Shown here: positions 15,392-30,495 of the stretch, piece by piece
Numbering within the stretch: position 1 is the first letter of the stretch
Layout of the letters: every line of letters starts with the position of its first letter
NCBI GenBank assembly: GCA_963169235.1
Contig: CAUJCX010000045.1
Coordinates: 1 to 33,874, forward strand
DNA from: Actinomycetota bacterium
GTDB lineage: Bacteria > Actinomycetota > Thermoleophilia > Miltoncostaeales > Miltoncostaeaceae
Direction: 5' to 3'
Length of the DNA: 33,874 bases
Position numbers and translations under genes: made by a program
Notes under the pieces: model-generated
Seen by the model: the letters and a program-made list of their open reading frames with translations, nothing else
What the model was told of the DNA's origin: nothing
The model's database searches: none

Positions 15392-17662
15392 GTGATGCGC
15401 AGGACCTCCACACCCCTTATCGCTCCGGCGATCTTCGTGATCCCCACCGCGGCGGCCGCCGCGCTGGCGATCGCGGTGAACACGGGCCGCATCACGCACA
15501 GCGCGGGCATCGCCTCCGCCCTCGTGGTTCTGGGGCTCGCGTACCACTCCGCGGCCCTGGTGCTGTGGGCGGCCTCCCTGCGGCTGGCGGCGCGACAACG
15601 GCAGGTGTGGCGCCTGCTCGCGGCCGGGTGCATGTTCGGCGGGGTGGGCTGGTTCCTGTACGCGTGGCTGATGACCCGGGGGCTGTCGTTCACCGACGCT
15701 CCCCCGACGTGGCTGGGCGTGCCCCGCGCCGGGATGTACGTCTGCTGGTTCTACGCCCTGTGGCTACTACGCCAGCCCCTGGTGTCCGCAAGCCGCCGCA
15801 CGCGCATCATGACGGTGGCCACCGAGCTCGCGGCGCTCGGCCTCGTGGGGGTCGTCGTGCTGGAGCTGCTGTGGCAGCACGAGCTGACGCTTCAGGTCAA
15901 TCTGATCGCGCTCGGGCCCGTGGCCATGGACCTGCTGCTGATCGCGGCCGCCTACCACGCCGTGCGCCGCGCGTCGCTGGAGCTGGACGGTGCCCACGTG
16001 TGGCTGGTGATCGGCTTCATCCTCGCCCTCGGCGCCCACATCGCGAGCGGGTTCGTGATGGCCCACGGCCTGGTGGTGGTGGGCGCGCTCACCGTCATCC
16101 TGATGGCGGGGGCCCTGGCCTCGTTCGCCGTGGCGTCGGGACGCAAGCTCCTCATGCGCGAGACCATCCTGGGCAACGAGCGCGTCACCGGGTTCATCGC
16201 GACCATCGGCCTGGCGGTGTCGGCCCCCGCCGCCGCCGTCTCCCAGCCGTGGCTTCTGCCCATCGTGTTCGGGCTCGGCAGCGTGCTCGCGTGGCGCGTC
16301 TACAGCCTCATCAGCGCGCAGGGCCAGTCCGAGATCGATCCCCTCACCGGGTTGCACGACAACCGCTCGATCCAGCGCCACATCTCGAGCGTCGCCGTCG
16401 CCGCCACGCGGCTGGAGCCCATCGCCGTGGTGGGCGTCGACCTGGACGGCTTCGGGCGCTGGAACGCCGAGCACGGGTTCGCGGCCGGGGACCAGCTTCT
16501 GACCCAGGTCGCCGAGCGCTGCGTCGCAGCCCCCATCGGCCCCGGCGTGTGGGGCCGCATCGGCCCCGACCGCTTCTACTGGGTCGGCCACGTCGCCGAC
16601 GGCCCCGAGGCCTCCGCGTGGGCCGAGCTGATCGCCGTCGCCGCCGCCGACCCCGCCGCAGCCGTGTCCGCCCGCTGCGGCGTGGTCATGTGCCCCACCG
16701 ACGCCGCCACCGCGGCCAACGTGATCGCCGCGATGGACGAGGCCCTGGAGGCCGCGGCCCGTTCCGGCACCCGCATCGTGGCGTTCGACCGTGGTCTGCT
16801 GGACGGCTACGCCGTGGACGGCACGTACTCGGCCTCGTTCCGCTCGCGCCGCGAGCGCATCGCCCAGATCATCCAGAGCCCCACCGCGATCCGGCCCGTG
16901 TTCCAGCCGATCGTGCGGCTGGGCGACTTCGGGGTGGTGGGCCACGAGGCCCTCACCCGCTTCGACCTCGAGCCCCGCCGGGGGCCGGACGAGTGGATCG
17001 CCGAGGCCCACCAGCTGGGGCTGGGCCTCGAGATGGAGTCCGAGTGCATGCGCCGGGCGCTGTCGCACGTCGCCAGCCTGCCCGACCACACGTACCTGTC
17101 GCTGAACTGCAGCCCCCAGCTGATCCTGTCGGGTCTGCTCGACCGCGTGGTGCCCGACGGATCGCTGCACTGGCTGCTGATCGAGCTGACCGAGCACGAC
17201 CAGGTGGCCGACTACGGCGAGCTGGCGGCGAGCCTGGCGCCGCTGCGCGCACGCGGCGCCCGCGTCGCGGTGGACGACCTGGGCGCGGGCCACTCGACGC
17301 TGCGCCACGTGGTGCGCCTCGATCCCGACTACGCCAAGCTCGACCGGTCCATCGTGGAGTCCATCGACGCCGACCCCGCCCGACGGGCGCTGGTGCGCTC
17401 GATGCTGGCGTTCAGCACCGAGATGGGCTGCCCCCTGGTGGCCGAGGGCGTCGAGCGTGACGAGGAGCTTGAGACGCTGCGCGAGATCGGCGTCGACTAC
17501 GGGCAGGGCTACCTGTTCCAGCGGCCGGGTCCCGCCATGGTGCACGCGGTCGACGCGCCCGGCGCCCGCAGCCGCCCCCGCCCGGCCGGCCCGGGGCCCG
17601 TCACCCCACCGGTGGTGCGACGCGTGGTGGGCAACGGCACCAACGTCGGCGTGGGCGACTGA
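15392..17662 (+). CDS. Membrane GGDEF-EAL protein: degenerate GGDEF, intact EAL c-di-GMP phosphodiesterase
   Basis: 756 residues from GTG 15392 (ATG at 15395 is the alternative). About eight or nine membrane helices fill residues 8-305, a sensor-like membrane domain. The GGDEF domain (about 315-465) has LTGLHDNRS but reads RIGPDRF at 389-395 where GGDEF should be, so cyclase activity is unlikely. The EAL domain (about 485-725) keeps the metal and catalytic residues: EAL at 519-521, Asn572, Glu601, DDLGAGHS at 628-635, Lys649 in AKLD, Glu685 in VAEGVE and Gln705. It should hydrolyse c-di-GMP. The degenerate GGDEF may bind GTP as an activator, as known for some relatives. The tail after 725 is a Pro/Arg/Val-rich linker without a domain. 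Confidence 0.93.
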   Translation: MMRRTSTPLIAPAIFVIPTAAAAALAIAVNTGRITHSAGIASALVVLGLAYHSAALVLWAASLRLAARQRQVWRLLAAGCMFGGVGWFLYAWLMTRGLSFTDAPPTWLGVPRAGMYVCWFYALWLLRQPLVSASRRTRIMTVATELAALGLVGVVVLELLWQHELTLQVNLIALGPVAMDLLLIAAAYHAVRRASLELDGAHVWLVIGFILALGAHIASGFVMAHGLVVVGALTVILMAGALASFAVASGRKLLMRETILGNERVTGFIATIGLAVSAPAAAVSQPWLLPIVFGLGSVLAWRVYSLISAQGQSEIDPLTGLHDNRSIQRHISSVAVAATRLEPIAVVGVDLDGFGRWNAEHGFAAGDQLLTQVAERCVAAPIGPGVWGRIGPDRFYWVGHVADGPEASAWAELIAVAAADPAAAVSARCGVVMCPTDAATAANVIAAMDEALEAAARSGTRIVAFDRGLLDGYAVDGTYSASFRSRRERIAQIIQSPTAIRPVFQPIVRLGDFGVVGHEALTRFDLEPRRGPDEWIAEAHQLGLGLEMESECMRRALSHVASLPDHTYLSLNCSPQLILSGLLDRVVPDGSLHWLLIELTEHDQVADYGELAASLAPLRARGARVAVDDLGAGHSTLRHVVRLDPDYAKLDRSIVESIDADPARRALVRSMLAFSTEMGCPLVAEGVERDEELETLREIGVDYGQGYLFQRPGPAMVHAVDAPGARSRPRPAGPGPVTPPVVRRVVGNGTNVGVGD

Positions 17663-19836: not shown

Positions 19837-19893
19837 CGCCCGCGGCGCGTTGGTGTCGACCCGGGACTGACGCGGTTCCCCCGGCGACGTCCG

Positions 19894-19899
19894 TACGCT
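19894..19899 (+). promoter_or_regulatory. Predicted -10 box (TACGCT) of the P-type ATPase gene
   Basis: TACGCT ends 7 bases before the ATG at 19907; leaderless spacing. No ribosome-binding site is visible upstream, which agrees. Confidence 0.45.
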
Positions 19900-19906
19900 G
19901 CACCCG

Positions 19907-22333
19907 ATGAGCACCTGGGATCCCACACTGCCCATGGGGGCGTCCGGCGCCGCACCGGGCCAGGTGGGCCTCACCGACGAGCAGGCCGCCCGCGTGCTGG
20001 CCTCGCGCGGTGGCCCTCCGGAGCCTCCCGAGTCGAGCCGCAGCGTCGCCAGCATCGTCCGCGCCAACACGCTGACGCTGTTCAACCTGATCCTGGCGGG
20101 CTTCGGCGTCGTCACGCTGGCGATGGGCGACTGGCGCGACGCCGTGTTCCTGGCCATCCTGGTGGGCAACTCGGGCATCGGCATCCTGCAGGAGCTGCGC
20201 TCCAAGCGTTCGCTCGACCGGCTGGCCGCCCTGGTGACGCCCCACGCCCGCGTGCTGCGCGGCGGCATCGAGCGCACCGTCGGCGTGGGGCACGTGGTGC
20301 CGGGAGATCTCCTGTTGGTGTCGCCCGGCGAGCAGGTGATCGCCGACGGTACCGTGCATCGCAGCGAGGGGCTGGCGGTCGACGAGTCGGTGCTCACCGG
20401 CGAGTCGCTGCCCGTCTCGCGCGGCCCGGGCGAGGAGCTGCGCGCCGGGTCGTTCTGCTCGGAGGGGTCCGGCAGCTACGTCGCCACCGCCGTGGGCCCC
20501 GACAGCTACGCCCAGCGGGTGGCCGGCGAGGCGCGCGAGTTCCGCCATCCCCTGTCCCCCCTGCAGATGCAGGTGAACAAGCTGCTGGTGGCGATGGTCG
20601 CGCTGATGATCCCGCTGGGCACCGCGTTCGCGGTGGTGCTCATCCGCAAGGACCACGGCCTGCGCGAGTCGGTGTCGAGCGCCACCGCGGGCGTCGTGAC
20701 GCTGGTGCCCGAGGGCCTCATCCTGCTGGTGAGCGTGGCGTACGCCATCTCGGCGCTGCGCATGTCGCGCCGGGGGGCGCTGGCGCAGCAGCTGTCGGCC
20801 ATCGAGTCGCTGAGCTCCACCGACGTGCTGTGCCTCGACAAGACCGGCACGCTCACCGAGGACGCGCTGCGCGTCGTCGAGCTGGTACCCGCCCCGGGCT
20901 ACGAGCGCGAGCAGGTGGCCTACACCGCCGCGGTGTACGGCCGGGCGTCGTCCGAGCGCGACACGCTGCTTGAGGCCCTGGGCGAGATCACCGACGCGCC
21001 CGCCACCGTGCCGGACGCCGTGGTGCCGTTCTCGTCGCGCTGGATGTGGAGCTCGATGACGCTGGCGGGACGCCCGTTCGTGCTGGGCGCGCCGGAGGTG
21101 GTGCTGGCGTCCGCGCGCCCCGGTCACGGCCTGGACGCCGCCGTGGAGGCCCACCAGGCCGCGGGGCGCCGCGTGCTGGCGCTGGCCGAGGCCGGCTCGC
21201 CGACGCGGACGCCCGACCCGGCGCACCCGGCCCCGCCCGCCGACCTGCAGGCGCTGGGGCTGGTGGTGCTGGCCGAGCAGATGCGCGAGGGGGTCGCCGA
21301 CGCCATCGCGTTCCTGCGGCGCGAGGGCGTCCGCCCCGTGGTGATCTCGGGCGACGACCCCGTGACCGTGGCCGCCATCGCCCGCGACGCGGGCATCCCG
21401 GTGGAGGGCGAGCCGCTCGACGGGCGCCGCCTGCCCCAGGACCCGGTGCAGTTGCGCGCCGCGGTGCTGACCGCGGGCGTGGTGGGCCGCACGCCCCCGG
21501 AGGGCAAGAAGCGCATCGTGGAGGCCCTGTCCGACGGACGCGACGTCGCGATGATGGGCGACGGCGTCAACGACGTGCCCGCCCTGAAGGCCGCCCGCGT
21601 GGCGGTGTGCCCCGGCAACGCCGCCGACATGGCCCGCACCATCGCCGACCTGGTGCTGGTGAAGGGCGGGTTCGAGTCGATCCCGCCGATGATCCGCGAG
21701 GGGCGCATGGTGCTGCGCAACCTGCAGCGCGTGGCCAAGCTGTTCGTCGCCAAGTCGATCCTGGCGGCGTTCCTCATCCTCACCATCGGCCTCAGCCCCG
21801 AGGCGTACCCGTTCCTGCCGCGCCACCTGACCCTGGCGTCCGCGCTCACCGTGGGCATCCCGGCGTTCATCCTGGCCCTGTCGCCAAGCGACGGGCCGTG
21901 GCGCAGCCGTCACTTCATCCGCGAGGTCACCCGCTTCGGCGTGCCGGCGGGCGTCGCCACGGGCCTCGGCGTCGTATCGGCGTTCCTGATCGCCAAGAAC
22001 GTGCTGGGCACCGACCTCACCGAGGCCCGCACGGTGGCGACCATGGCGCTGGTGATGATCGGCCTGTACCTGGTGCTGCTGCTGGAGGGCTCGGCGGCCT
22101 CGCCCCGGCGCACCAACTGGACGCTGGCCCTGGTGGGCGTGCTGATGCTGTTGTTCGTCGTGGTGCTCACGCTGGCCAGTTGGCGCGCGTTCTTCGACCT
22201 GCGCATCACCAGCGTGCTGTCCGTCGTGGCGGCGGTGTCCGGCACCCTGCTCGCGGTGGCCGGCATGTGGGCCACCGACGCGCGCTTCGCGCCACCGTTT
22301 CCCGCTCTACGCAGGCTCGCGCAACGAATCTGA
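19907..22333 (+). CDS. P-type cation ATPase, CtpE-like
   Basis: 808 residues. Actuator domain motif LTGES at 163-167; phosphorylation site DKTGTLT at 311-317; hinge GDGVNDVPAL at 551-560; membrane metal-site motif VPEGL at 267-271, the PEGL signature of calcium-type pumps. The nucleotide domain is short and reads LGAPE where most pumps have KGAPE. There are about ten membrane helices, with a 6-helix C-terminal block. No N-terminal heavy-metal Cys domain. This set resembles mycobacterial CtpE, reported to take part in calcium uptake, so calcium is the likeliest ion, but the ion is inferred. The next gene encodes a protein of a calcium-dependent enzyme family. Confidence 0.92.
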   Translation: MSTWDPTLPMGASGAAPGQVGLTDEQAARVLASRGGPPEPPESSRSVASIVRANTLTLFNLILAGFGVVTLAMGDWRDAVFLAILVGNSGIGILQELRSKRSLDRLAALVTPHARVLRGGIERTVGVGHVVPGDLLLVSPGEQVIADGTVHRSEGLAVDESVLTGESLPVSRGPGEELRAGSFCSEGSGSYVATAVGPDSYAQRVAGEAREFRHPLSPLQMQVNKLLVAMVALMIPLGTAFAVVLIRKDHGLRESVSSATAGVVTLVPEGLILLVSVAYAISALRMSRRGALAQQLSAIESLSSTDVLCLDKTGTLTEDALRVVELVPAPGYEREQVAYTAAVYGRASSERDTLLEALGEITDAPATVPDAVVPFSSRWMWSSMTLAGRPFVLGAPEVVLASARPGHGLDAAVEAHQAAGRRVLALAEAGSPTRTPDPAHPAPPADLQALGLVVLAEQMREGVADAIAFLRREGVRPVVISGDDPVTVAAIARDAGIPVEGEPLDGRRLPQDPVQLRAAVLTAGVVGRTPPEGKKRIVEALSDGRDVAMMGDGVNDVPALKAARVAVCPGNAADMARTIADLVLVKGGFESIPPMIREGRMVLRNLQRVAKLFVAKSILAAFLILTIGLSPEAYPFLPRHLTLASALTVGIPAFILALSPSDGPWRSRHFIREVTRFGVPAGVATGLGVVSAFLIAKNVLGTDLTEARTVATMALVMIGLYLVLLLEGSAASPRRTNWTLALVGVLMLLFVVVLTLASWRAFFDLRITSVLSVVAAVSGTLLAVAGMWATDARFAPPFPALRRLAQRI

Positions 22334-22619
22334 CACATCTGCGGGTTTCTACGGATGCCTTGGAGCCTCCGCCTGTGGATGAACCTGTGGGGTCTGTGGA
22401 TCGTTTTCCGTACCGCCCGTCCCAGAACCGCGTCGCGGCGCGTCGCGCGCAGGATGGTCTGTCCACTCCGGACGGGCTCGTCCGCCCCCGCGGGAGGGAC
22501 CGCGCCACGCCGTGACGACCGCCGCCGTGCCGGGTCGTGCGCCGACGCCACGCGCTGACATCGTCCCGCCGCCGAATCGTCATGTTCGCGTGCCACGCGC
22601 GTGACGAGGGGGTGCTTTC
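22334..22619. other. Gene-free stretch with TGTGG-rich patch and hairpin
   Basis: 286 bases with no convincing gene. The first part is less GC-rich than its surroundings. It holds TGTGGAT at 22374 and 22395 and TGTGGGG at 22386, plus CTGTCCACT at 22459, resembling DnaA boxes (TTATCCACA or its complement) with one or more mismatches. CGGACG-GGCT-CGTCCG at 22469-22484 is a 6-bp hairpin. TACGGA at 22350 could be a -10. The 67-codon frame starting at 22355 is Arg-rich and low-quality. It could be a long leader for the deiminase gene, a small RNA, or plain spacer. Confidence 0.4.
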
Positions 22620-24389
22620 GTGGGATGCATGTCACGCCCACTCGCCACCGCACTCGCGCTCACCGCCCTCGCGACCGCGGGCGCCCACGCCGCCGTCGCC
22701 GCTCCCACCCCCGCGCCGGACCCGCTGATCGTGCTGCCCAACCTCGACGACGACTCCCGCCGCTGCCCCGCAGCCACCGAGGACGCCAAGTTCTTGCTGC
22801 GCGACGCGCGGGGGCGCCGCATCGCGCGCACCGCGGTCACCCGCTGCAACGACGCGGCGGACGACCGCTCCAACGGCTCCGCGGACATGCTCGACATCAC
22901 CCCCGTGCGCGTCGGCGCCCAGGCCCGCGTTGCGGCCGGCGCCCGCGTGAACGTGCGCGTCATCGGCGGGCCCAAGGGCGTGTTCCGGGTGATGGTGCGA
23001 CGCGGCGCGGAGTACGTGGGCGTCGACCGCAGCCCCCTGACGGGCGCCGACCTGCGCCGCCCCGTCACGCTGGGCGTCGAGGGCACCGACATCCGCCGCA
23101 GCGGATGGGACGGCCGCGCGACGCTGCGCGTGACGGCGCCGGGCATGCGCGCGGTGGACGCGCCGATCGTGTTGGCGCCCATCATCTACCAGCACGACCT
23201 CACCCCGGTGCGGACGCTCATCACGGCGGGCACCGTGGCGGGCACCTCCGCGACGAACCCGGAGCAGTCGCGCGGCGCCCGCCGCTTCGCGCGGGAGGCG
23301 GCCGCCGCCGCGGCGCCCATCGGCGCGCGCACCACCTCGCTGCCGTCCCCGGTGGGCGACGTGTACGTGCAGGACGCGTTCGAGCCCACCCTCGCCACCC
23401 GTCCCCTCCCCGGCGGCCGGGTGCAGTCCATCCGGCTGCTGGTGCGCCGCACCGACCTGGTGCGCCCCAACGCCCCGGCGGCCCTCGGCGGCATCTCGCT
23501 GGAGCTCTTCAACCGCCTGCGCGGCCCCGGCGTGGGGGTGGTGTCCACGCCCGTGTCGCGGGGTGCCGGTGCGGCGCAGCGCCTGGGAGACAACGCCGGC
23601 GGCAACTGGAGCGTGGTGCCGCCCTACCGCACCGCCACCGCCTCCTACCCGCTGGGTCGCATCATCTACGGCGGCCGCCCGGACGCCCGTCTGCGGGCCA
23701 TCGCCCAGGCCCAGGGCCTGCAGGCGCCGTTCAGCGTCGACGTCGGCTGGGCCGGCGTGGGCCACCTGGACGAGATGATCACGTTCCTGCCCGCCCGCAA
23801 CGCGCGCGGCTGGATCGTGGGCATCGCCGACCCGCAGGCGGGCCTGGCGCTGGTGCGCGACGCGGTCTCCCGCGGGCAGGGCGACGGGACGGTGCTCACC
23901 GGCATCACCCGCAGCGACGGCGGCGGCCGCGCGGTCAGCGTCGCCGAACGCCTCACCGACCTGCTGGCCGACCCGGACGTGCTGAAGGGCACCGCCGACG
24001 CCCAGCGCGTGATCGACAGCCAGGTGGACGTGCTGCGGCGCGAGCTGGAGCTGCGTGACGACGAGATCGTGCGCCTGCCCATCCTGGTGCGCAGCCCCGC
24101 GGGCTCGGGCGGCGGCGTGACCGTCATCCCCAGCGTCGTCAACTCCCAGTATCTGGGCGACGGCGTGCTGCTGTCACCGCACCAGCACGGGCCGGTGGTG
24201 GGCGGCCGCGACGTGTTCGAGGCCGAGGTGGAGCGCCTCCTGACCCCGCACGGGCTGAAGATCCGCTGGATCGAGGACTACCACCACGCCCACGCCGGTG
24301 GCGGCGAGGTGCACTGCACCACCAACGTGTTCCGCGCGGTGCCGCCCCAGGTGCTGCGGTGGTGGACCGCCCCGGGCGCGCTCCGGTAG
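22620..24389 (+). CDS. Secreted peptidylarginine deiminase (vertebrate-type PAD)
   Basis: 589 residues from the GTG at 22620, whose GAGGGGG site is 7 bases upstream; an ATG at 22629 is the alternative. Signal peptide to about residue 28 (ATALALTALATAGAHAAVAA). Residues 35-180 fit the PAD middle (Ig-like, calcium-binding) domain, with N41, D43, D45 in an NxDxD run like that of human PADs. The catalytic PAD_C domain follows: Asp252 in VQDAFE, YPLGRIIYG at 343-351, His382 and Asp384 in VGHLDEM, GPVVGGRDVFE near 524-534, and Cys566 in GEVHCTTNV, with WW just before the end as in animal PADs. All four catalytic residues are present. It should convert peptidyl-arginine to citrulline outside the cell, probably needing calcium. 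The vertebrate N-terminal PAD_N domain is absent. Confidence 0.9.
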   Translation: MGCMSRPLATALALTALATAGAHAAVAAPTPAPDPLIVLPNLDDDSRRCPAATEDAKFLLRDARGRRIARTAVTRCNDAADDRSNGSADMLDITPVRVGAQARVAAGARVNVRVIGGPKGVFRVMVRRGAEYVGVDRSPLTGADLRRPVTLGVEGTDIRRSGWDGRATLRVTAPGMRAVDAPIVLAPIIYQHDLTPVRTLITAGTVAGTSATNPEQSRGARRFAREAAAAAAPIGARTTSLPSPVGDVYVQDAFEPTLATRPLPGGRVQSIRLLVRRTDLVRPNAPAALGGISLELFNRLRGPGVGVVSTPVSRGAGAAQRLGDNAGGNWSVVPPYRTATASYPLGRIIYGGRPDARLRAIAQAQGLQAPFSVDVGWAGVGHLDEMITFLPARNARGWIVGIADPQAGLALVRDAVSRGQGDGTVLTGITRSDGGGRAVSVAERLTDLLADPDVLKGTADAQRVIDSQVDVLRRELELRDDEIVRLPILVRSPAGSGGGVTVIPSVVNSQYLGDGVLLSPHQHGPVVGGRDVFEAEVERLLTPHGLKIRWIEDYHHAHAGGGEVHCTTNVFRAVPPQVLRWWTAPGALR

Positions 24390-24399
24390 GGGCGCTACC
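24385..24399. terminator. Tiny hairpin formed by two convergent stop codons
   Basis: GGTAG-GGGCG-CTACC: a 5-bp stem whose arms contain the deiminase stop (TAG) and, on the other strand, the glycosyltransferase stop. Only weak terminator potential. Confidence 0.2.
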
Positions 24400-25729
24400 A
24401 GGACGCCGGCGGTTCTCCCAGCCAGCCGCCGTCCGCGCGTGAGCGCAGGAGGATGCGCCCGGGCGTGGTGCCCGGGTCGGTGATCGCGACGACATCCACA
24501 TCCTCAATGCCGTTGCCCTCGAGGGCCCGGGCGAGGTCATCGATGTCATCGTCCGGCTCCATCGCCACGATCAGCGACGTGGTGTCGCCACGGGCCGTGG
24601 CCAGGTACTGCGCGACGGGCGCCCCGGGCGAGGTCAGCCGGCCCGCCAGGACGATGTATGCGTGCTCCCGCACCGCCGGTTCCTGCAGGAGGTTGTCGGG
24701 CGCGGGTGCCGCCATGCCCGGCCTGGCACTGGGGAGGCCGCCCTCGAGGTCGGCGAGGGCGCGATCGTGCCACGGGTTGTGGCCGTATGCCATCACCAGG
24801 TCTCGCGTGGCCAGGTCCGGCCGCGATCCCGCGCGCGCCACCGCCCGGGCGTAATGCCACTCCGCGCGTTCCTCCGCCTCAGCGGTCGGCGTGTAGAGCT
24901 CACGCGGCGTGCGGCCGCGCGCGGCGGCGACGCTCGTCATCAGCCCGCGCGTGTTGTAGAGGGCCGCCCTCAGCTCGCCGATCCCAAGCCACGGAGCACC
25001 CGCGAGGTTCGCCAGCATCCACTGCCGCCACGGGACCTCCCGCTCGTGCGCGCGCAGGACGCCTTCGTCACCCGTGTCGAGGCCCATGTTCGCCTCGTGG
25101 CGGCGGTACCGGTTGGCGCAGCCGGGCACGAGCGCGATGGGGGCGACCGCCGCGACGTTCGCGGCGATCCACCAGTCGGGATAGGGGGCCTGCGGCGCCA
25201 GGGGCAGCAGCATCGGCAGAAGCGACGCCCGAAACGTCGCGGCCCCACCCGACACGAAGTTACGGGCCATGAGGCGCCCCAGCACCCAGCCGTCGGTGGC
25301 ATCGACGTCCCAGGCCGCGAAGAACGACGGGTGCACCGTCGCGCCCCGGTCGTCGATGATCTCCATGTCGCCATGCACCAGACCCAGCTCGGGACGCTCC
25401 TCAAGCATCGTCACGTGACGGTGGACGCGGTCCGCGGGCCACTCGTCGTCGGCATCGAGGAGCGCCACGTAGTCGCCGCGGGCTTCGCCCAGCCCACGCG
25501 CGGCGGCGGCGGGCAGCCCCGCGTTGTCCTGCCGGATCACCGTCACCCGGTCCCGGTACCGCTCCAGCACCGCGGGCGTCTCGTCCGTCGAACCGTCATC
25601 GACCACGATCACCTGCACCGCGTCACGGGGCCAGTCCTGCCCCAGCGCGCTGTCGAGCGCCGTCGGCAAGAACCGCGCCAGGTTGTACGCCGTCACCACC
25701 ACCGAAACCACGGGCGCTGCCCTCAACAC
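24395..25729 (-). CDS. Family 2 glycosyltransferase with long C-terminal region
   Basis: 444 residues from the GTG at 25729; a TTG one codon later fits the AGGAGG site slightly better. The GT-A domain covers about 1-230: VSVVVTAYNLARFLPTALDSAL, VDDGSTDET (DDGSTD at 44-49), the DXD metal motif in LLDADDEWP (92-95), then acceptor-side motifs GLVHGDMEIID and YRRHEANM. It should transfer a sugar from a nucleotide-sugar to a surface polysaccharide or glycolipid. Residues 240-444 continue with helices and a last alpha/beta part (EHAYIVLAGRLTSPGAPV, then VDVVAITDPGTTPGRILL) that I cannot assign. No membrane helix. Divergence and a GGGTACCGTCGTG stretch upstream suggest its own promoter. Confidence 0.9.
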   Translation of the reverse strand: MLRAAPVVSVVVTAYNLARFLPTALDSALGQDWPRDAVQVIVVDDGSTDETPAVLERYRDRVTVIRQDNAGLPAAAARGLGEARGDYVALLDADDEWPADRVHRHVTMLEERPELGLVHGDMEIIDDRGATVHPSFFAAWDVDATDGWVLGRLMARNFVSGGAATFRASLLPMLLPLAPQAPYPDWWIAANVAAVAPIALVPGCANRYRRHEANMGLDTGDEGVLRAHEREVPWRQWMLANLAGAPWLGIGELRAALYNTRGLMTSVAAARGRTPRELYTPTAEAEERAEWHYARAVARAGSRPDLATRDLVMAYGHNPWHDRALADLEGGLPSARPGMAAPAPDNLLQEPAVREHAYIVLAGRLTSPGAPVAQYLATARGDTTSLIVAMEPDDDIDDLARALEGNGIEDVDVVAITDPGTTPGRILLRSRADGGWLGEPPASW

Positions 25730-25798
25730 TTCCTCCTCACGACGGTACCCGCGACGTCTTCGGCGGCGTCACGGGATTCTTGAGCGCCGTGCGGGTGT

Positions 25799-26317
25799 CT
25801 ACGAGGCCGCGCGGCGCAGCACCGGCAGCGCCGGGATCGCCGGCCGCTCACGCCCCATCAGCCGCGCCGCGCACGTGGCGACGCGCTCCAGGTGCCGCCC
25901 CAGCAGCACCGCGTTGAGCGCGTCGGCCTGGTGCCCGCCGTGCTGGGCGATGTGGTCGATCATCATGCGCAACGTCACCGACACCACCGCCGCGCGCGCC
26001 CGGCCGCCGATGAGGGCGTGGGTGTCGTCGAGGGGCACGGCCAGCGCGGCGTGCAGGGCGTCCACCGCGGCCTGGGCGGCCGCGTCGAGGTACTCGTCGA
26101 GCTCCCGCTGCCCGGCGGGACGGCGCCGCGCCCGCGTCGCCTGCGCCACGGGCCCCACCAGGCCGGCCAGCACCAGCAGCGTGGCGTGGGCCTCCCCTCC
26201 CGCTGCGGGCTGGGCACGCAGCTGCTGGCGCAGGCGCTCGCCGCGCCGGGTGCACGCCTGTGCGGCCACCGCGTCGCCGGGCGCGACGGCCAGCGCGCGC
26301 TCCACCGCCACCAGCAC
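25799..26317 (-). CDS. PhoU-like helical protein (start uncertain)
   Basis: 172 residues if begun at the GTG of 26317. The frame is open up to an ATG at 26512. Coding-like third positions continue to about 26368 (reading ITPNLAHDARSTPLSGQ) and end there; an ATC at 26368 has GGGAG eight bases before it, so a rare start is possible. The protein is all-helical with two related halves. The end, LGRHLERVATCAARLMGRERP, matches the PhoU pattern (GRyLERiaDhA.ni.e), and MMIDHIAQHGGHQADALNAVL precedes it as in PhoU repeats. PhoU proteins restrain phosphate uptake and the PhoR/PhoB system. No pst or pho genes are in view. The metal-binding E/D clusters of PhoU are poorly kept, so call it PhoU-like only. 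Confidence 0.7.
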   Translation of the reverse strand: MLVAVERALAVAPGDAVAAQACTRRGERLRQQLRAQPAAGGEAHATLLVLAGLVGPVAQATRARRRPAGQRELDEYLDAAAQAAVDALHAALAVPLDDTHALIGGRARAAVVSVTLRMMIDHIAQHGGHQADALNAVLLGRHLERVATCAARLMGRERPAIPALPVLRRAAS

Positions 26318-26390
26318 CTGCCCCGACAGGGGGGTCGAGCGGGCGTCGTGGGCGAGGTTCGGCGTGATCGGGGGCGCTCCCGGGAGTGGT

Positions 26391-26411
26391 GTGACAGGCC
26401 GTGACAGGCTA
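26391..26411 (-). promoter_or_regulatory. Direct repeat CTGTCAC next to a -10 box before the PhoU-like gene
   Basis: On the minus strand TAGCCT (26411-26406) runs into CTGTCAC GGC CTGTCAC, two identical 7-mers 10 bases apart (plus-strand GTGACAG at 26391-26397 and 26401-26407). Pho boxes of E. coli use CTGTCAT-like repeats 11 bases apart. The resemblance is suggestive given the gene it precedes, but position and spacing are not exact. Confidence 0.4.
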
Positions 26412-26467
26412 GGCGCGCCGCCGGACGCCCCCGGCGCGGGCCGCGCGGGCCGCGGCGGCCGCGGCGC

Positions 26468-28289: not shown

Positions 28290-28715
28290 ATGGACTCACC
28301 TCACCACGACGTGATCTCCCGTGAGCTGGGCAAGCTGGGCCGCTCGGGCGCGGCCACGGTGGCGGCGACGCTGCCCCGGGGCGCGTGCTCGCGCGACGTC
28401 GATATCGCCCTGGCGGCCGATGCGGCGCTGGGACGCTGCGCCGACGTGCTGTCCGACGCGGGCGAGCTGTTGCCCGACGAGGCCGAGTACGCCGAGTCGG
28501 TGCCCGACGCCGCCACGCACCCCACCGTGGCCGCCATGGTCGGCTCCGGGTTCTTCGGCATGAACCCCACGCTGGTGGCGTGCAGCGTGGTGGCCACCGA
28601 GGGTGCGTCCACCACCGTGCGGTTGTTCGCCAGCGCCGCCGAGGGCCTCATCCCGCAGAAGAGCGCGCAGAAGGCCGTGCGGCGCCTGGCGCCGCGCGTG
28701 CGCGGCGAGGGCTGA
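28290..28715 (+). CDS. Hypothetical protein, 141 residues
   Basis: Begins MDSPHHDVISRELGKLGRSG. It has mixed alpha/beta character: a helix, a basic RGACSRD turn, a long acidic helix (LSDAGELLPDEAEYAESVPDA), then VAAMVGSGFFGMNPTLVACSVV and a strand-turn TTVRLFASAAEGLIPQKSAQKAV. The mid part (THPTVAAMVGSGFFGMNPTLV) looks like a buried hydrophobic strand-helix, not a membrane helix. No signal peptide. No family recognised. Codon use matches the neighbours. Its own leaderless promoter separates it from metZ and the membrane protein. Confidence 0.75.
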   Translation: MDSPHHDVISRELGKLGRSGAATVAATLPRGACSRDVDIALAADAALGRCADVLSDAGELLPDEAEYAESVPDAATHPTVAAMVGSGFFGMNPTLVACSVVATEGASTTVRLFASAAEGLIPQKSAQKAVRRLAPRVRGEG

Positions 28716-28824
28716 GCCCCAGACGTCCCGCGTCGGCATGGGGCCCGCCCATGTGACGCGAAGGGGTACGTCCCGGCGCGGCATCACAGGGCTCGCACGC
28801 CGATACGCGCGGAGACCCGCCGTC

Positions 28825-30495
28825 ATGCCCGCGACCCCCGCCCACACGCCGCTGCGCCGCCGCCATCGGGCGATCACGCTGATGCTCATCGGCCTGCTGG
28901 CGATCCAGGCGGTGACGCTGGGCGTGTTCGGGGTGATGCTCTGGAACGACCGCAGCCGGGCCGCCGGCGACTCGGCCGAGCGCACCATCAACCTGGCCGG
29001 CCAGGCGGCGACGGCCCGGGTGGCGGCGTTCACGGGCCAGGTGGAGAGCACCGTCGGGCTCATCGTGCGGGCCCAGCGCACCGGGATCCTGGGCGGCGTG
29101 GCCGACGCGCGCACGGCCCGGTTCCTGTTGCTGACGCTGCGCTCCAACGCGGCGTTCGACGCCGTGTACGTGGGCTACCCGGACGGTTCGTTCGTCGACG
29201 CCAGCCGTGACGACGCGTATCCGGGTGCCGCGTACCGCCTGAAGACCATCGTGGGTGCCCGCAGCGGCGTGCGGCGCGTGGTGCGGGCGACGTACCTCAC
29301 GTCCGCATTCCGCGTACTGGTGCGGGAGCAGGTGCACGGCGACCGGTACGACCCGCGCGCGCGGCCGTGGTACCGCGCTGCCCTGGCCCGGGGTGGCACG
29401 GTGTGGACCGACCCGTACCTCTTCTTCACCGATCAGGCCGCGGGCATCACCGCCGCGCGGGCCACCGGGACGGATCGGCGACGGGTGGTGATCGGGATCG
29501 ACCTGCGCCTCACCGAGCTGGAGCGCTTCGCCGGTGATCTGCGGGTGGGCGATCACGGCGGCGCGGCCCTGATCGGCCCCGGCGACACGGTGCTGGCCGG
29601 CGGGTCGCCCGATGCCATCCGCAACGCGCGTCCCGGCGAGATGCCGGCGCTTCCCGACGCCGGGACCCTGCTGGGGGCGCCGGACGTCGTGCGCGACCTG
29701 CTGGCGGCCGCCCGCCGGTCGGGCGGCACCAGCGTGACGACGTTCGGGTCGGGTGCGCGCCGCACCACCGTCGCCCTCGCGCCCGTGCAGGTGGGCGGCG
29801 ACCGGTGGGTGGTGGCGCTGCACGCGCCCACCGACGACCTCTTGGGGCCCGAGCACGCGCGTGCCCGCAGCCTGCGCGGCATCGCGGCCCTTGGGCTGGT
29901 GTCGATGCTGCTGGCGATCGGAGTCGCGGTCGCGATGCGCCGGCCGCTGGGTGACATGTCGGACGCCGCGGGACGGGACCCTCTCACCGGCCTGTTGACG
30001 CGCCGCGAGCTCGTGCACATGGGCGAGCGTCACTTCCAGCGCGCCCGCCGCGACGGCGACCTGTCGGTGCTGCTGGTGGACGTGGACCACTTCAAGCGCG
30101 TCAACGACAGCCACGGACACGGCGCGGGTGATGAGGTGCTGCGGTCGGTGGCGGACGGCCTGCGCGCGGCATCGCGCCCCACCGACGCCGTGGGACGCTA
30201 CGCGGGCGACGAGTTCATGGTGCTGCTGCCGGGCGCCCCGGCGCACGAGGCCCGGTACATCGCCGAGCGGGTGGTGCATCACGTGCGCCGCGCGGCGGAG
30301 CGGCGCGGCACCACCGTCAGCGTCGGCGCGGCCACGCTGGGGACACACGCCGCGTTCGCCGACCTCGTGGCCTGCGCCGACCGGGCGTTGTACCGCGCGA
30401 AGGACGCGGGGCGTGACCGCGCGGTGTTCGACGACGGCGAGGAGCCCTCCCCCGCCGAGCCCGTGGGCCCCGGCTCGGGAGGGGACGGGGGTTGA
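28825..30495 (+). CDS. Cache-GGDEF diguanylate cyclase
   Basis: 556 residues from the ATG at 28825 (GGAG ten bases upstream; in-frame codons further up are not coding-like). Helix 1 at about 17-40 and helix 2 at 351-371 bracket a periplasm-side double Cache sensor domain, marked by DPRARPWYRAA (177-187) and VWTDPYLFFTDQ. The GGDEF domain starts at DPLTGLLTRRE (385-395), with DVDHFKRVNDSHGHGAGD (419-436), active site AGDEF (460-464), and an I-site RPTD (451-454) five residues before it. It should make c-di-GMP in response to an outside ligand, with product inhibition. It is the likely counterpart of the EAL protein at 15392. The tail is Pro/Gly-rich. Confidence 0.93.
   Translation: MPATPAHTPLRRRHRAITLMLIGLLAIQAVTLGVFGVMLWNDRSRAAGDSAERTINLAGQAATARVAAFTGQVESTVGLIVRAQRTGILGGVADARTARFLLLTLRSNAAFDAVYVGYPDGSFVDASRDDAYPGAAYRLKTIVGARSGVRRVVRATYLTSAFRVLVREQVHGDRYDPRARPWYRAALARGGTVWTDPYLFFTDQAAGITAARATGTDRRRVVIGIDLRLTELERFAGDLRVGDHGGAALIGPGDTVLAGGSPDAIRNARPGEMPALPDAGTLLGAPDVVRDLLAAARRSGGTSVTTFGSGARRTTVALAPVQVGGDRWVVALHAPTDDLLGPEHARARSLRGIAALGLVSMLLAIGVAVAMRRPLGDMSDAAGRDPLTGLLTRRELVHMGERHFQRARRDGDLSVLLVDVDHFKRVNDSHGHGAGDEVLRSVADGLRAASRPTDAVGRYAGDEFMVLLPGAPAHEARYIAERVVHHVRRAAERRGTTVSVGAATLGTHAAFADLVACADRALYRAKDAGRDRAVFDDGEEPSPAEPVGPGSGGDGG

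Follow-up and report, generated by a model that had tools for sequence, protein, structure and literature searches.

The gene at 22620–24389 on the forward strand of the window, by which we mean the whole 33,874-nucleotide stretch of DNA analysed, encodes a member of the peptidylarginine deiminase (PAD or PADI) family, with matches well beyond chance. Its product is probably an exported two-domain protein-arginine deiminase, with activity, location and substrates predicted. PADs in actinobacteria are already known, from 136 species (PMC8826395), and the protein is a well-formed example of a family already described; its interest lies elsewhere than in the mere presence of the gene. Not noticed in the original prediction, two further PADs are encoded in the genome, and the three together do not make up a single clade. 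The gene and its principal parts are as follows.

22605–22612, forward strand: Shine-Dalgarno-like purine run GAGGGGG, read by eye from the sequence
22620–24389, forward strand: PAD gene, 589 aa, GTG start, from the open reading frame list, the Pfam PAD match and the PDB matches to PAD1 and PAD4
22629–22700, forward strand: Sec-type signal sequence MSRPLATALALTALATAGAHAAVA, probably cleaved after AVA or AAVAA, from inspection by eye and a simple hydrophobicity test
22731–23172, forward strand: Ig-like middle domain, the PAD_M equivalent, from the alignment of the model to PAD4, which starts at residue 136, and the residue table
23172–24365, forward strand: PAD catalytic domain, from the Pfam PF03068 match over residues 185–582

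The GAGGGGG run ends about 7 nt upstream of the GTG, a spacing that fits, and an alternative ATG lies three codons after the GTG, at 22629. The GC content at third codon positions is 0.968, similar to that of the neighbouring genes. No promoter or terminator was found in a search near the gene on its strand.

The protein matches the Pfam PAD family (PF03068) with an E-value of 4.6e-61 and a score of 207.4 bits, where the gathering cut-off is 25, and this is the only Pfam family matched at E ≤ 1; NCBIfam gave no match. A sequence search of the PDB returned human PAD1 and PAD4 with E-values of 4e-34 to 8e-32. The signatures YPLGRI, VGHLDE and GEVHCTTN, on which the original prediction of a PAD had drawn, were all read in the protein, and the final WW that it had also named is present as RWW near the C-terminus. 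An AlphaFold2 model, for which 60 relatives were aligned, reached a mean pLDDT of 89.2 and a pTM of 0.89. Foldseek matched this model to PAD4 with an E-value of 5.3e-41, the best solved matches all being human PADs, and a VIA comparison with PAD4 gave a Z of 45 and an rmsd of 2.5 Å for 481 residues, spanning PAD4 residues 135/146–663. The model thus has the PAD fold in its middle and catalytic domains, and the suggested superposition on human PAD4 agrees with the original prediction.

Since the model spans PAD4 residues 135–663, we conclude that the protein has both the middle and the catalytic domain and that PAD_N is absent, as had been proposed. Moreover, no profile match to PAD_N was obtained at E ≤ 1, and the approximately 38 residues that precede the LPNLDDD block are mostly signal sequence. 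The Ig-like middle domain that had been predicted is seen in the model, but the corresponding Pfam profile, PAD_M, stayed below threshold even at E ≤ 1, so that the suggested profile search succeeded for the catalytic domain and failed for the middle one. The protein was also said to be unrelated to the Porphyromonas enzyme PPAD, and this is upheld: PPAD belongs to a different family (PF04371), for which no profile match was found at E ≤ 1. PPAD citrullinates outside the cell, as the window PAD would.

To compare individual residues, we aligned the window protein with 86 bacterial relatives and with human PAD4, whose letters were taken from the PDB match. The numbers of the PAD4 ligands and functional residues are those that we take to apply from the PAD4 and PAD2 structures, and all 19 letters checked agree with expectation. 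The geometry of the active site is deduced from the sequence and fold alignments. The codons of the principal residues are:

23364–23366, forward strand: Tyr249, replacing the substrate residue Trp347 of PAD4 (W in 84 of 86 relatives, F in 2)
23373–23375, forward strand: catalytic Asp252, aligned with PAD4 Asp350 (D in 86 of 86)
23610–23612, forward strand: Ser331, replacing the Ca1 ligand Glu411 of PAD4 (E in 78 of 86)
23763–23771, forward strand: catalytic His382 and Asp384, aligned with PAD4 His471 and Asp473 (invariant in 86 of 86)
24315–24317, forward strand: nucleophile Cys566, aligned with PAD4 Cys645 (C in 85 of 86)

The four catalytic residues are therefore those originally named, and the equivalents of PAD4 Q349, E353 and V469 are likewise intact. 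The counterpart of a further substrate residue, PAD4 R374, falls within a poorly aligned insert, where R283 is the likely candidate.

The calcium residues are kept in part. In the middle domain, the blocks LPNLDDD (N41, D43 and D45) and CNDAADD...SADMLD (D78, D81, D89 and D92) supply calcium-loop residues, and E154 aligns with PAD4 E252; among these, N41, D43, D45, D89, D92 and E154 are retained. The Ca2 site is changed, with A253, R276 and R277 standing for PAD4 E351, D369 and S370, respectively, and at the switch position G304 replaces D388. Arginine at the D369 position is the rule among the two-domain relatives (79/86). On the alignment, Tyr249 and Ser331 are changes peculiar, or nearly so, to the window copy; its sister in the tree described below, L008, also lacks E411 and keeps the other residues. 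The protein thus shares with human PAD4, PAD1 and PAD3 the fold of the middle and catalytic domains and the catalytic residues, whereas PAD_N, the Ca2 site, the switch Asp388 and Glu411 are not kept. The earlier statement that it lacks only PAD_N holds for the missing domain but overlooks the differences at the calcium sites and at one substrate residue. Because the Ca2 ligands, the switch aspartate and one Ca1 ligand (E411) are lost, we expect calcium to gate the window protein less tightly than the human PADs, or in a different way.

Glycine at the calcium-switch position has been ascribed to actinobacterial and fungal PADIs (PMC8826395), a statement that drew on six sequences with an actinobacterial label. 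In our sequence alignment of 86 bacterial PADs, the D388 position, which lies in an indel-containing region, is occupied by Asp in 54, Gly in 27 and Asn in 5; motifs such as RGRDVGVV and RGPGVGVV nevertheless align without doubt. As judged from this wider sample, the claim does not hold: with G in only 27 of the 86 and D in 54, glycine does not define the two-domain group, and the residue difference used to divide PADIs into two kinds is not a sharp one. A triple-histidine linker motif has similarly been ascribed to two-domain PADIs (PMC8826395). The window protein reads IIYQHDL in this region, compared with LLTQHHL in Streptomyces, and the triple histidine occurs in none of the 13 bacterial two-domain rows viewed.

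Two kinds of PADI have been distinguished, one with three domains, found in animals and late-diverging cyanobacteria, and one with two, found in fungi, actinobacteria and other bacteria (PMC8826395). Among 47 sequences, none of them cyanobacterial, placed in a maximum-likelihood tree, a branch with support of 100/100 sets the window protein and 44 other bacterial PADs apart from PAD4 and L094, a putative three-domain bacterial PAD. This separation places the window protein with the two-domain PADIs. The label ‘vertebrate type’ in the original prediction is therefore dropped as too strong, the more so as the Ca2-site residues and the switch aspartate are absent; of the phylogeny that had been proposed, this tree covers the comparison with PAD4. 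The sister of the window copy is L008, from a Pseudomonadales metagenome-assembled genome, with support of 100/98. We regard this pairing as tentative because both branches are long, that of the window copy measuring 1.36 changes per column.

The window protein has the domain order of the two-domain PADIs of actinobacteria, myxobacteria, other bacteria and fungi (PF03068 with a divergent PAD_M; PMC8826395). It has in common with them the absence of PAD_N, the catalytic tetrad, the LPN.DDD and CND blocks, the arginine at the D369 position and export. Identities to members of this group are 27–40%, the highest, about 40%, being to an Actinophytocola protein. It differs from them in Tyr249, Ser331 and Arg277, in the lack of an N-terminal DxNRDGxVD loop and in its place on a long branch with the Pseudomonadales sequence. 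That it might instead be a true three-domain PAD of the animal/cyanobacterial type that has recently lost PAD_N is extremely unlikely: the general PAD motifs that it shares with the human enzymes would suit such an origin, but the 100/100 branch separates it from PAD4 and L094, the Ca2 ligands and the switch residue are missing, and its LPN.DDD and CND blocks have the form seen in the two-domain group.

L094 (739–2685; G113, contig C3, 295831–297777) is a PAD of the animal/late-cyanobacterial kind from the same class and another family. It matches Pfam PAD with an E-value of 3.9e-120 and PAD_M with 6.3e-17, and scores 370 bits against human PAD4. It carries the motif LDSFGNLEVSPPV, keeps E351, D369 and S370 of the Ca2 site together with the switch aspartate, and has no signal peptide. 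About 100 residues precede its PAD_M, the first 74 of which are below a pLDDT of 50 in the folded model, and its PAD_N is putative. The gene lies within a 722-kb contig of even GC, and no PAD of this kind was found among the 120 relatives searched. In the literature, three-domain PADIs are confined to animals and late cyanobacteria; the gene likely arrived by transfer from cyanobacteria.

The Sec signal peptide of the original prediction was recovered at the N-terminus of the window protein, in the stretch listed above. The test applied looks simply for a hydrophobic stretch following a basic residue, and by this test 82 of 86 sequences, the window protein included, have a signal-like start. 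Export thus appears to be a trait of the bacterial two-domain PADs as a family, not special to the window copy. The words ‘signal peptide’ and ‘secreted’ were not found in the main text of PMC8826395. An extracellular location is accordingly predicted for the window PAD, whereas the human PADs are cytosolic or nuclear.

The genome, a high-GC one of 2.94 Mb in 65 contigs, contains two further PADs, on contigs C33 (L002, 635 aa) and C4 (L003, 639 aa). Both are two-domain PADs with signal sequences, as is the window copy, and are 31 and 34% identical, respectively, to the mature window protein, but they keep E411 and W347, which the window copy does not. The signal sequence of both is followed by a motif resembling a calcium loop, DxNRDGxVD, that is missing from the window copy. 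A clade of the three PADs is rejected (AU p 0.0008); one of the window and C4 copies alone is not (AU p 0.14). Ten other PAD-bearing genomes comprise eight with one PAD, one with two and one with two pieces of a single frame. PADs occur in 6 of 399 genomes of the class and in 2 of 42 genomes of the order, both in the genus of the window. The second of these, the congener G011, carries a single PAD, placed in the tree with the C33 copy (97/66). Comparison with this congener defines one further feature:

19847–26465, no strand assigned: variable segment of 6.6 kb holding the PAD gene; the same flanking genes are about 1.2 kb apart in G011

The flanks are genes for a zinc peptidase and a Cys/Met enzyme. 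They are 77–82% identical in DNA sequence to G011, so the contig belongs to the genus; the PAD gene is accessory within it, gained here or lost in G011. By eye, the 1.2-kb interval of G011 encodes a GntR-like regulator; the gene for the P-type ATPase, near the PAD gene here, is on another contig there. A search for plasmid carriage with the C33 paralogue gave only four distant hits, to Streptomyces/Embleya plasmids. The neighbouring genes encode a P-type ATPase, a zinc peptidase, a glycosyltransferase and a GGDEF/EAL protein, among which we found no consistent link to a target and no operon partner. Proteins of cyclic di-GMP turnover are encoded on either side of the region, one of EAL/GGDEF type at 15392–17662 and one of Cache-GGDEF type at 28603–30495.

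Once the signal peptide has been cleaved off, the Ig-like domain and a five-bladed α/β catalytic domain would fold as in the human PADs. By homology with these enzymes, Asp252 and Asp384 would hold a peptidyl arginine while Cys566 attacks the guanidinium carbon; His382 would act as general acid/base, and ammonia would leave before water frees citrulline. The charge of arginine would be neutralised outside the cell, on the bacterium's own surface proteins or on cationic peptides of competitors, and such extracellular removal of charge seems the most likely role of the window PAD. Non-animal PADIs can be active: this has been shown for a three-domain cyanobacterial enzyme (PMC8826395), and active fungal PADIs are cited (PMC8826395, PMC9174705).

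Tyr249 (W347), Ser331 (E411), Arg277 (S370), the glycine at the switch and the long branch nevertheless argue against activity of the window PAD, which may possibly be weakened or lost. Taken further, the protein would retain the PAD fold without efficient catalysis or calcium response and serve another purpose, such as binding, or would be a decaying third copy. Mammalian PAD6 offers a parallel. The non-consensus residues at the W347, S370, D388 and E411 positions and the long branch suit this account, as does the accessory standing of the gene even within the genus, and activity could rest with the other two PADs of the genome. Against it, the four catalytic residues and the equivalents of Q349, E353 and V469 are intact, the reading frame is uninterrupted and the GC content at third positions is normal; moreover, the sister L008 also lacks E411 and keeps the rest, which looks like evolution of a subclade and not decay. 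We consider loss of catalysis quite improbable.

The same chemistry might alternatively serve a secreted scavenger of arginine, valuable for the ammonia or citrulline gained from peptides and not for the modification of chosen proteins. The extracellular location predicted by the hydrophobicity test would allow this, and the arginine deiminase family PF02274 was not found in the genome, so that this family does not deal with free arginine here. Human PADs, however, act poorly on free arginine, and no citrulline or carbamoyl-phosphate genes adjoin the PAD gene. On balance, scavenging seems unlikely to us. Similarly doubtful is a more specific version of the preferred reading of an exported two-domain deiminase, in which the window protein and its Pseudomonadales sister would form an exported subclade with little or no calcium gating, the genome keeping its three PADs, each of separate origin, for different targets.

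What PADs do in bacteria has been described as completely unknown (PMC9174705). The present case is of interest for a genome with three copies, for calcium residues that are altered and for an export signal that is almost universal. Nearly all the bacterial two-domain PADs examined have a signal-like start, which points to targets outside the cell and so narrows the search for them, and a genome with three distinct PADs predicted to be exported, one of which has altered calcium ligands, would provide a natural comparison of calcium gating.
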